NCBI RefSeq assembly: GCF_000002985.6
Contig: NC_003284.9
Span: 8,618,001-8,682,000, forward strand
Direction of reading: 5' to 3'
Length of the DNA stretch: 64,000 nt
Origin: Caenorhabditis elegans
Taxonomy: Eukaryota > Nematoda > Chromadorea > Rhabditida > Rhabditidae
Shown here: positions 58,674-64,000 of the stretch, piece by piece
Layout of the letters: every line of letters begins with the position of its first letter
Position numbering within the stretch: the first letter of the stretch is position 1
Notes under the pieces: generated by a model
Told to the model about the DNA's origin: nothing
Database searches by the model: none
The model's input: only the letters and a program-made list of their open reading frames with translations
Translations under genes and position numbers: made by a program

Positions 58674-59602
58674 ATGCCAGCCGAAACTGCATTCCACGTT
58701 CCTTCAGATTTCACACAAGAACCTGTAAGCTTTTACGTGATTACGGTCATTCACAATAACCATTTTCAGGTACAATTCGTTGCTCTCGAGGACACCGGAG
58801 CCATTCTCACACATAGTCGAAAAGGGCTCGTTGCAATTGGTGAAAAGAAAACCGAGATTTCAGTGGTTAGTGACTAGTGGAAATGAAATGGAAAAAAAGT
58901 ATTTCGATTTTAGTTAAATTTTTCTCTCAAAAAGTTATTCCAGGTTGACTTCGTCGGCTCCGCAGATGTTGGAGTTCTGGAGAACACCTTCACTATGCAG
59001 TGGCAAAATATTGGAAACACTACTCAAGTACACTTCACGGGTTTGTTTCTCATTTTTTCCCAATTTGAATATTTTCATTTGTAGGAACCGGTGGATCATT
59101 GTCCGGAGAGGGTAATCCTGGTGTTCTTCTTATCGACGGCGAGGTTATCAAAGTTAATGTAAGATACTTGAACTCGGAGTACATTTTACAAAAAATTTCA
59201 TTTTCAGCTTCTTCAAAAGAGAACAGATGGATCTTTCTATTTGGAGGCCAACGAGGACTTCCTGATGATTGTTGCCAAATCGAAAGCTGACGGATCTCCT
59301 GATGCTGAGACTCTTCAAGCTTCACAGTGAGTAATACGTAAAAAGTTTGGTAATTTATGTACCAACAAATGTTACACATTCAAGTTCATAATTTGATTTT
59401 TCGCAGATTCCCAGCAAGCGGAGCCAAGCTTCCAATCGGCTACTGGCACTCGGTCCCATTCCCAATTCCAGGGGCTGGAAAACTCAACCTGGTTGAATTG
59501 GTAGCTAAAACCGACAAAAATGCAGTGATCAACGTCCCAGAGCACACCGGAACACCACTCCGAATCCCAATCAAAACGGTGCTGGACGAGGATTCCGACT
59601 AA
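58674..59602 (+). CDS. Soluble protein of unknown function, 210 aa
   Basis: Six exons, 58674-58724, 58770-58865, 58944-59040, 59085-59158, 59208-59326 and 59407-59602, total 633 nt with compatible phases. All introns but one are under 90 nt, and codon use is strongly C/G-ending in the last exon, which suggests good expression. There is no signal peptide or membrane span, so a cytosolic protein is likely. The sequence alternates short hydrophobic strands and polar turns (for example TGTGGSLSGEGNPGVLLIDG), which looks like an all-beta domain. A later part reads PIGYWHSVPFPIPGAGKLNL, and the protein ends in an acidic tail (DEDSD). I do not recognise a family; it may be nematode-specific. An AATAAA follows at 59917. 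It is on the same strand as the next gene, 514 bases upstream, but nothing shows an operon. Confidence 0.85.
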
Positions 59603-60115: not shown

Positions 60116-63100
60116 ATGAACCGACAGTTTCATTGGTATGATTCAGAAAAAATGGAAGGATTGGTCGAGACGATGAAACAACTAAAAGTGAAATTTGAGA
60201 ATGAACAACAGGTAATTAATTCAATTTTTATTAGAAAAACACACTTTACAACTATGTATAACTATAATACATCATTGCCAATTTTATACGGAAACGAAGA
60301 CAACGTAATTTGTTTATAATTATATTCGAAAATATACAACCAAAAAAATTGCATAATTAATTTATTTTTCGTTTTTTTTTAATTTCTAAAAGTTTCACAT
60401 TGTTTTGATGATTCACCATCACAAATATCACCAAAAACCATTCCTCCTAATTGGAGAACACTTTTTTTTACAATTTTATGTGAAACACTTTGATCTTTGA
60501 GTGGAATCGTTACGTCGAAGGCGACATTCTCTACGATGTGACTGATGAGAAGAGTGCAAATACAGTTCACAGCTATGTACTCGACCCGGAAAATAACTTG
60601 TCGTTAGAAGATACTCACAAGTATTTCGACTATATAATGAAAGTAAGTGGGTAAAAAATTATTTAAGTTACTTTACTGGATTATATTATATTTCAGTGAG
60701 TTTCCAGAGTATCTAACAGTTTTATTAAATAAAAGATTAAAAAAACTGAACAGTTGAAAGTGAAAAGAAATAACACTATATGTATCTGGAAAGAAGTTTT
60801 TGCAATCGTACAATCATTTGCAAATTTTTTTTTGACGAATCAAAAATCTAATTTATAAATTGTTCATTCCAAAAATAGTACAATGCAAAAAAATCAGATC
60901 CCAATAGTAGAATTAACTTCAAATCAATGCCTTCATTTTTTGAAATGAATTGTTTTGCTATTGTGTAAAAATGCGAATATTTTTTGTGGAGTATTTGAAC
61001 CAAAAATTTCGAAGTGATTTCTAAAGAAAATTATTCAAATCTTTAATTTTTTTTAGTTTCGAGCATTCCCATTAAGTTTTCTTAACTTTGTTTTCTTTCA
61101 TAGGCTTTGACCAACTCATCTGTGGATAGTATTGACAAAACAGATTCAAAATGGTTGCAACTGGTTGCTCAAAACATGAATATATTTCAAGACGTGAAAT
61201 CAAAACTTTTGAAACGATGGACTTGGTTAGTATTCGAACAATGTGGGATTGAAAGCAATAAAAACGAAATCATATTCCAGTTGGAGAGTTTAACGCTTTC
61301 ATTCTGGAGGGCGTCGTCTGAAAGAAAAGGTTTAAATTTTACGCTGTTTCTGTAAAAAAGTAAGATTAATATTTTAAGGAAAAATAATATTTTTCCCTGG
61401 AATCCATATAGAAATCGTTCCGTTTCTTCAATCTATTCGAGTGGTACAACACTTTGAACAACACACAACAGAACTTCACAATGTCATGAAAAAATATCCT
61501 CTTGGTAGGTGAAACAAATTTGATTTTTATCATTAAGTTTATTCAGAATTTCTTTATCAATACGTGGAACCTGAAGAAGATCCCGAGCCTTATGATGAGT
61601 TAGTTCCGGACATATTTGTAGAAAATAAGCTAGTTACTAAGAAAAAGTTGAGAAAAAAAGTCGTGAAGAAAGGATTGACGTAAGTGATTTCAGAATTTAT
61701 AGAAGTTTTTTCAAATTTCAGAAATACAATTGAACTAGCACTAAAAAGTGGAGAAAAGAGAAAAAAGAAGCAAGCTCATTTATCTCAGCGAACTTTGGTA
61801 AGAATGAAATTTTCAACACTATACATTTTTAAATTTAAGCTTAGTAGATCACCGTCGTTGAAACGTGGAGAGCATATTCGTTTCAATCTTTACTCCGACG
61901 TCACTCCGATTTGGAAAAAGTCTGCAACGAAAGGTGATGGGGTTTGAACAGTTATGTATGTTGAAAAAGGGAATACTCTTTTAGAAAGATCAACGGATGG
62001 AACAGAACACAAAATAGATTTTGGTACAGAAGCGTTTCTTGGTCCAGTCTACCTAATTTCGTCATTTGAAAGTTCGAAGAAAACTCAAAAATATGGCTCT
62101 TGGACTTTGACGATAGGTTCATGGTTGAAGCTAATTTCAAGCCAAAAATTACAATTTCAGACGTGAAACTGGACGAGAGAAAGCTTAGCGGTGAAAGCCT
62201 ATTAGTTTCGCTCAAGGTGCCTGTGGAAGAAGTATTTCTCGGCTCAAATGAGCCAGTTGTAGCATTTCGAGATGAAACATCAACTGACTGGAAAAAAGGA
62301 GTGTTCACAACCCATACGCAATTTGATCAGAGTTGGTTGTTTTGTTGCATTCTTATAAGATATGAGTTTCAGAATGTGAAAATATATTTGTTATTTAAGA
62401 AATATGATAAAACTGACTGAACTAAGCGAATGTTAGATGATTTCAAAAAACTGAAAATTATTGTAAACTTTTCTCTTATCCCCTTTAAATTCCTCTGCAA
62501 TTTGGACAGCCAAAATGTCAAAAAAATCTGAAAAATTACGTGTTCTTTTATTTGAAGGGTTGCGAATGTTTTGCGATAAAATAGAGATAGTTTCAGCTTT
62601 AACATATAACAATTTAGATATTTTTCTATCACTTACAGAGGATTTGAAATTTTTTCAATTTTTTTTTAGCAAATTCATAGTGAAAATTGTGACAATTTGA
62701 TAGTTTTGTCAAATTGTCAACTTATCAAAACATTGGAACGCCTTCCACCTTTCCCCTACACATTACTAATTATGTCCCAGTAGGAAGTTCTAATTGGAAA
62801 ACAAATACTTTTAAAAAATTATAGTTTTTCTTCTGAATTTGTTGAGTTTTTCAGATACTTTTATTGTTACCACCCGCTTATCGAAAATGGGATATGTTTC
62901 ACTCTTCCAACACAACGACTTTCATTATCCTTACAAATCGTGGAAGATTCTTTTCGAACAAGACAAAATTTCATTGAGATTGCACACGAATGTTGTTGAA
63001 TTAGCATTTGTCATTGAGGTGTCGATAGAAGATTTCAGTGTTACTAGATTATCCTTGTTGTTTTTAAGGGAAATTACTTCTATTTGGACACACTGACTGG

Positions 63101-63588
63101 AGATGAATTCAGCAAGTTGAGAAACTTGCATCAGAAAAAAATGTCGTTGTCGGAACTGATTATGAAATTTGAAAAACATGGAGTACATATTGTCCCCAAT
63201 GATGACATAATTAACAAGCATAGAGATACAAAAAAGGTGGAATAAATTTTTAAAATTGAACAACACTCATTATTCAGGATTTGGATCTTGAAATTTTCAC
63301 TTACCGCCTTATTTGCCTCAACCAAATAAACTGCGAATCGTGTCGTATGAATAGCACAGTTTCCATGGAAACTGTTGTTCTCACTGTCAACGGAGCCCCG
63401 GTATATTTTAAGTTGTACAAAAAAATATTTTTTTTTTTCAGAGAAATATCACAACGAAATCTGCTGGAAAATATGTCGTGAATTTTGGAGAAGCTGGGAA
63501 AAAACAAAGAATCCATGAGAATTATGTAACACCAGCAACGCTGTTTCAATTTTTAATGGTCACACGGCCACTGATTGTTACAAAATAG
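60116..63588 (+). CDS. CASC1/DNAI7-like (axonemal dynein-associated) protein, 587 aa
   Basis: Thirteen exons: 60116-60211, 60502-60642, 61104-61329, 61412-61504, 61547-61679, 61722-61797, 61840-61933, 61985-62116, 62161-62331, 62855-63018, 63069-63236, 63278-63400, 63442-63588, total 1764 nt in phase. Similarity to human CASC1 (DNAI7), compared from memory, runs through the protein in order. QQWNRYVEGD matches the QWKHYIQCDG start of the N-terminal domain. GPVYLISSFE matches GGVYHLDILE. The VSLKVPVEEVFLGSNEPVVA stretch matches its vertebrate counterpart around FFEDPVVVRWD. YPYKSWKILF matches MPYQSWELRP, and the later HGVHIVPNDD region matches GLNIFPTRHS. The long N-terminal coiled coil of the human protein is mostly absent. 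CASC1/DNAI7 supports assembly of axonemal dynein in motile cilia, which nematodes lack, so a different or residual role must be assumed. The 51-nt intron 7 and the 44-nt intron 8 are needed to avoid a stop and a frame change. No convincing RFX X-box was seen upstream. Confidence 0.85.
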
Positions 63589-63909: not shown

Positions 63910-63988
63910 ATGCTTTTCCGGGTTTTTTCGTTTTGTGTATTTGCCAGCTTTTGGCGATTTGTTGTAACTATCGATTTACAGAAAGAAG
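63910..63988 (+). CDS. First coding exon of a secreted or membrane protein (partial)
   Basis: ATG at 63910 follows an acceptor at 63904 by five bases. The exon reads MLFRVFSFCVFASFWRFVVT and then IDLQKE, ending at a GTAATA donor at 63989 in phase 1. The first 20 residues form a typical signal peptide, or a signal anchor. The rest of the gene is outside the window, so the product cannot be named. Confidence 0.6.
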
Positions 63989-64000
63989 GTAATAAGAATA

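Follow-up and report, generated by a model that had tools for sequence, protein, structure and literature searches.

We identified a gene in Caenorhabditis elegans whose predicted product almost certainly belongs to the DNAI7/CASC1/IC97 family as a divergent member. The gene, referred to here as the DNAI7-like gene, lies within a stretch of 64,000 nucleotides (contig NC_003284.9, positions 8,618,001 to 8,682,000, presumably chromosome X), which we call the window. At the level of sequence similarity, we show that this one genome encodes a DNAI7-family protein together with an inner-arm-like dynein heavy chain and a p28-like light chain. Inner-arm dynein f/I1 contains DNAI7/IC97 as an intermediate chain that lacks WD repeats and sits at the light-chain tower (PMC10886578, PMC10266980); here and below, statements on published work refer to excerpts of the cited papers. 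An initial annotation, made by a model from the letters of the window, had placed the family in dynein preassembly. In the published descriptions it is a subunit of the arm and not a preassembly factor; Chlamydomonas IC97 is dispensable for arm assembly and is required for FAP120 localization and normal motility (PMC11656769). C. elegans has secondarily lost motile cilia (PMC9633640) and is reported to have no axonemal dyneins at all (PMC10605206). A dynein subunit in such an animal is less puzzling once the p28-like light chain and the heavy chain DHC-3 of the same genome are considered, and the DNAI7-like protein may serve in touch-sensing cilia.

The gene was assembled from the raw sequence as 13 exons on the + strand, from the ATG at 60116 to the TAG at 63588. 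All 12 introns are of the GT-AG type, the phases are consistent, and no stop codon arises at the joins. The coordinates and exon number of the initial annotation were reproduced exactly, and its assignment of the host to the nematodes was also correct; its length of 587 residues is replaced by 598. An alternative model with a 51-nt intron (61230-61280) within exon 3 gives 581 residues. We kept exon 3 continuous because the length preceding the VTLYVW segment is then, by eye, close to that of human DNAI7.

The training set for the codon scores comprised 2,944 codons, drawn from long open frames at the dhc-1 locus plus a single such frame in the window; the score penalizes stops and is thus not independent of frame openness. 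The model frame had the highest score of the six frames in 11 of the 13 exons, the exceptions being exons 4 and 8, and it led by 0.01 in exon 13. The joined coding sequence scored 0.09 bits per codon; the two remaining forward frames, with 46 and 39 stops, scored −0.32 and −0.28. A frame of exon 8 ending in VI-stop was discarded, as it contains a TGA, whereas the chosen frame aligns with the DNAI7 family. The acceptors end in CAG (six of the 12), AAG (three), TAG (two) and GAG (one), and GTTTAA, GTTCAT, GTTGGT and GTGTCG are weak donors. Thus, the earlier view of an intact gene held in that all exons are open and in phase, whereas its "good splice sites" was a generous description. The gene appears to be single-copy, as all nine matches of its own protein in the whole genome (E up to 1) fall in its own locus. 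Intron 9 (62332-62854) is the longest of the gene at 523 bases and holds a 77-codon open frame (62467-62700); the entire intron had a negative score in each of the three forward frames.

To compare the protein with the family, we built a profile from the C-terminal halves of five PDB chains found with human probes (8j07_k3, 9fqr_Hn, 8glv_AE, 9e5c_5n and 9y6s_9K). The profile matched the worm protein with 50.3 bits over the whole and 45.6 bits in the best stretch (single-sequence E values of 1.4e-17 and 4e-16), whereas the best of 2,000 shuffles gave 7.1 bits and the exact reversal −0.3 bits. The family call of the initial annotation was confirmed by this result. Human DNAI7 alone scored 19.2 bits against 7.4 bits for the best shuffle. 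Residues 354-544 account for the main profile match; hmmsearch placed residues 287-339, the exon 8 region, elsewhere on the profile (3.0 bits), and the mafft alignment instead extends to exon 8. In that alignment, which omits worm insertions, the C-terminal domain is collinear with the family over about 240 columns. Identity to human DNAI7 was 21.0% over 238 columns, and the range across the five chains was 17.0-22.3%, compared with 23.3-28.0% between distant members of the five. Ten of the 23 columns invariant among the solved chains are kept in the worm protein, including the Y and W of PYxSW; nine are changed and four are gapped.

Pfam Casc1_N matched residues 14-74 (18.4 bits, E 0.0019, cut-off 28.2) and Casc1_C matched residues 390-522 (15.2 bits, E 0.013, cut-off 26.2). 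The Pfam check suggested in the initial annotation returned both domains in the family order in one protein, each below its cut-off. No other Pfam family was reported up to E 10, with filters dropping most matches above about 0.1. Homology is clear for the C-terminal half and is weakly supported for the N-terminal half, so that the likeness to human CASC1/DNAI7, proposed earlier for the whole length, is firm only at residues 354-544. Members of the DNAI7 family carry a long N-terminal part with a coiled coil before the Casc1_N core. The Casc1_N match opens at position 53 of 201 of the profile, with 13 residues preceding it in the worm model; this long upstream part seems to be mostly missing from the model, and an unseen upstream exon is conceivable.

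Simpler searches did not recover the relationship. A phmmer search of the worm protein against PDB sequences gave no match at E 10, Pfam Casc1_C gave none in the exon-by-exon search of the genome, and the C-terminal half of human DNAI7 gave none in the worm genome at E 10, which indicates that simple pairwise searching overlooks this homology. A search for related loci gave one patterned stretch in viral contigs and 23 in genome contigs, none of them confirmed, in collections without a nematode set. No report of the C. elegans gene was found in open-licence literature on CASC1/DNAI7 with worm terms; automatic databases may already list a DNAI7 orthologue.

We searched the worm genome for other dynein components exon by exon. 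This procedure missed parts of known genes, giving no stalk match at the che-3 locus and no Dynein_C match at dhc-3, and the locus names dhc-1, che-3 and dyla-1 are our assignments. Ax_dynein_light (p28) exons were found on contig 6, the contig that carries the window, at 16,842,016-16,842,350, and we take them to be the published DYLA-1. In the search for heavy chains, among them the arm-f (DNAH2/DNAH10) type, exons of the stalk domain (PF12777) were found at two loci, which we regard as dhc-1 and dhc-3, and Dynein_C matches at dhc-1 and at a second contig 1 locus, taken as che-3. The matches on contigs 5 and 1 fit the published positions of dhc-3 (B0365.7; V:13,150,172-13,150,276) and of a che-3 mutation (I:8,070,133) (PMC6237615). 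Tctex-1 domains matched at three genome places; at contig 6:8939679-8940027, two overlapping matches contain internal stops and are perhaps exons of one gene. CFA20 was also matched. Radial spoke 3 and DNAAF3 gave no match and DRC1/2 one sub-cut-off match; we dropped the claim that these are absent, because the reach of the exon-by-exon search is limited and their controls matched nowhere.

The relationship of DHC-3 was evaluated with a query of 23 hand-chosen, concatenated + strand open frames (contig 5:13139499-13151430), which includes some intron translation. Among the best 60 of the 74 PDB chains matched, the highest named chains were human DNAH3 (300.7 bits), DNAH7 (259.6 bits) and DNAH12 (237.2 bits), which are single-headed inner-arm chains. 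The best cytoplasmic chain among these 60 was 27pt_A (89.6 bits), cytoplasmic dynein 1 heavy chain 1 scored 68.6 bits, and no dynein 2 chain was present. The linker stretch alone also placed DNAH3 first (111.2 bits), compared with 58.6 bits for the best cytoplasmic chain, 45.0 bits for cytoplasmic dynein 1 heavy chain 1 and 38.5 bits for dynein 2. As a control, a dhc-1 frame selected cytoplasmic dynein 1 with 1831.2 bits. Open frames of the dhc-3 region contained one Walker A motif (G4xGK[ST]) and those of dhc-1 four, a count that an intron-split motif would escape, and the AAA1-AAA2 stretch of DHC-3 gave no dynein match among PDB sequences at E 1. Because DNAH3/7/12 are the nearest solved relatives, one Walker A motif is present and AAA1-AAA2 gave no match, we read DHC-3 as an inner-arm heavy chain that has degenerated, and not as a dynein of intraflagellar transport (IFT); its main ATPase site appears to be lost. 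DHC-3 was published as a possible second IFT dynein, and reporters of dhc-3, dyla-1 and dyrb-1 are expressed in OLQ neurons, which build their cilia independently of CHE-3 (PMC3112216).

We tentatively propose that C. elegans keeps a fossil inner arm, composed of a DNAH3-type DHC-3 lacking its main ATPase site, the p28 DYLA-1 and the DNAI7-like protein, which has changed from a motor into a passive microtubule linker in mechanosensory cilia. That the DNAI7-like protein itself works with such an arm as a microtubule linker in sensory cilia is possible rather than probable. The protein would be an accessory subunit of the light-chain-tower type in a relic inner-arm-like dynein. This arm would be retained in specialized immotile sensory cilia, above all those of OLQ, and would contain DHC-3, DYLA-1 and light chains of the Tctex type that IFT dynein also uses. 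Its motor being dead, it would no longer drive movement and would instead link doublet microtubules passively or gauge the strain between them. In favor of the proposal are the profile homology, the OLQ reporters of dhc-3 and dyla-1, and the examples of EFHC-1 and CFAP-20, which show that sensory cilia of C. elegans reuse motility proteins (PMC6392500, PMC9633640). The initial annotation offered a choice between a relic under relaxed selection with a new role and a function outside axonemal motility; both are considered below, and it left out the case of an inner-arm-type client kept in sensory cilia, which may persist because the genome keeps both a p28-like light chain and an inner-arm-like heavy chain.

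Several observations weigh against the proposal of a fossil arm. DNAI7/IC97 is a subunit of arm f, which has two heads, whereas inner arms with a single head are anchored by p28 (PMC10886578) and DHC-3 matches single-headed chains; the partners are therefore unmatched in known axonemes. The placement of DHC-3 is drawn from sequence scores, its query was composed by hand from open frames, and Dynein_C was not matched at dhc-3 in the exon-by-exon search. N-terminal similarity to DNAI7 is weak: N-terminal and middle profiles (from five and three sequences) scored 3.1 and 0.0 bits, below many shuffles, so that this similarity depends on the sub-threshold Pfam match and its position. The X-box-like palindrome of the gene, described below, sits in a coding exon, and the surroundings of dhc-3 and dyla-1 yielded no exact match to the X-box consensus. 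The dhc-3 reporter is also expressed in HSN, PVR, PVCR and PVWR neurons, and OLQ cilia are free of gross defects in a dyla-1 mutant (PMC3112216). Ivermectin resistance was seen both in a dhc-3 mutant and after dhc-3 RNA interference; the authors read it as an amphid or IFT effect and regard dhc-3 as a che-3 paralogue (PMC6237615). OLQ mechanosensation is normal in efhc-1 mutants (PMC6392500). In the mechanosensory chordotonal neurons of Drosophila, the arm-f subunits including IC97 are not expressed (PMC6367277).

The main rival to the fossil arm is attachment through the Tctex2-type light chains of IFT dynein. Here the protein would be an accessory of dynein-2 (CHE-3) bound via the Tctex2-type DYLT-2, riding IFT or loading cargo in most ciliated neurons, a reading that we consider doubtful and yet a serious contender. 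It draws on dynein f, in which IC97 is attached through Tctex-2b, the bridge between IC97 and Tctex-1, and on the listing of DYNLT2B for both dynein-2 and inner-arm dynein f (PMC10886578), as well as on the three genome places with Tctex-1 domains. However, the literature excerpts examined mention no DNAI7-like subunit of dynein-2, and from 58000 to the window end (6 kb) the sole exact X-box consensus is that in exon 12. A role away from cilia is unlikely: IC97 was reported to interact with tubulin (Wirschell 2009, cited in PMC11656769 and PMC10266980), and the protein could bind tubulin or microtubules elsewhere or, once motile cilia had disappeared, have been recruited to a different cytoplasmic task, but no result of the present analysis points in that direction.

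Decay under relaxed selection, leaving a gene of no real function, is somewhat harder to accept. The 13 of 23 family-invariant columns that are changed or gapped, the several weak donors and acceptors and the hardly recognizable N-terminal half would agree with it; against these stand 13 exons that keep an open, in-phase reading frame through 598 codons, the leading codon score of the model frame in 11 of them, and the collinear C-terminal domain. A function in sperm is very improbable, as the sperm of nematodes lack flagella and the gene is presumably on chromosome X, where sperm genes are rare in C. elegans. In its favor is the testis-only expression of the fly counterpart, CG15373 (IC97) (PMC6367277).

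Exon 12 contains a perfect palindrome, GTTTCCATGGAAAC, which occurs at nine places in the whole genome, while its backwards control occurs at none. It fits the X-box (RFX/DAF-19) consensus. A similar X-box site is, for example, GTTTCC AT GGTTAC of xbx-1 (PMC3112216); the letters of GTTTCCATGGAAAC were not found among the open-licence X-box papers listed. A looser X-box consensus with at most one mismatch occurred 42 times in the window against 52.4 expected from shuffles, indicating no enrichment, and four distinct places in the window match this looser consensus exactly. We rejected GTTTCCATGGAAAC as a promoter element of the DNAI7-like gene, since it is within exon 12 and none is present at the dhc-3 and dyla-1 regions. 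It lies approximately 540 bases upstream of the presumed ATG (63910) of the next + strand gene and may be an element of this neighbor or a chance occurrence. This downstream gene, which occupies 63910-64000 of the window and continues beyond it, has a signal-peptide-like start (by eye), a long Ser/Thr-rich frame and a von Willebrand A domain (PF00092, E 2.8e-28). The upstream + strand gene (58674-59602) encodes about 210 residues when spliced by eye and matched no Pfam family at E 1.

Table 1 Exons of the DNAI7-like gene and the palindrome in exon 12 (window positions).
Feature	Position	Strand	Description
Exon 1	60116..60211	+	Start codon; Casc1_N-like stretch (residues 14-74) begins
Exon 2	60502..60642	+	W..Y..GD segment and remainder of Casc1_N-like stretch; weak acceptor GAG
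Exon 3	61104..61329	+	Continuous form preferred
Exon 4	61379..61504	+	Model frame not top of six by codon score
Exon 5	61547..61679	+	Model and codon score
Exon 6	61722..61797	+	Model and codon score
Exon 7	61840..61933	+	Model and codon score
Exon 8	61985..62116	+	LGPVY...SWTL segment, paired by mafft with human LGGVY...GWMI; codon score not top of six
Exon 9	62161..62331	+	Main profile match begins (residue 354)
Exon 10	62855..63018	+	PYKSW segment, paired with human PYQSW
Exon 11	63069..63236	+	Middle of Casc1_C-like domain
Exon 12	63278..63400	+	Profile match ends (residue 544)
Exon 13	63442..63588	+	Last exon; stop codon
Palindrome GTTTCCATGGAAAC	63359..63372	none	Within exon 12; X-box-like

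If the fossil-arm proposal is true, the statement that C. elegans lacks axonemal dyneins would be instructively wrong, as inner-arm parts would survive without beating. A genetically tractable animal would then be available for the roles of DNAI7 and inner arms apart from motility, and the worm cilia could be compared with insect chordotonal cilia, where mechanotransduction requires dynein activity, though arm f is missing there (PMC6367277). Even without a mechanism, a C. elegans homologue of DNAI7 makes a candidate ciliopathy gene accessible by simple genetics.

Among known systems, the worm protein is compared most directly with DNAI7 and IC97 themselves. It shares an alignable C-terminal domain and a PYxSW-type segment with human DNAI7/CASC1/LAS1 (8j07_k3) and with IC97/FAP94 (8glv_AE, which we take to be a Chlamydomonas chain); the alignment to the latter spans 223 columns at 19.3% identity. 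No WD repeats were matched in any of the three. In contrast to DNAI7 and IC97, the worm protein occurs in a host without motile cilia, has a shorter and barely recognizable N-terminal part, and does not keep 13 of the 23 invariant columns. The excerpted worm dynein table of PMC3112216 gives neither a heavy chain nor a WD-repeat chain of arm f. EFHC-1 and CFAP-20 are likewise motile-cilium proteins retained in the immotile sensory cilia of C. elegans: EFHC-1 works in CEP cilia and localizes to CEP and OLQ cilia (PMC6392500), and OLQ cilia are structurally defective in the cfap-20 mutant (PMC9633640). These two proteins differ in belonging to the protofilament ribbon and inner junction rather than to dynein arms, and their localization is known from experiments. 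The putative OLQ dynein of DHC-3, DYLA-1 and DYRB-1 (PMC3112216) likewise consists of dynein-type proteins without motile cilia and is the proposed partner of the DNAI7-like protein; it was published as a possible second IFT dynein, with no DNAI7-like gene in the table as excerpted, whereas here DHC-3 matches inner-arm dyneins best.

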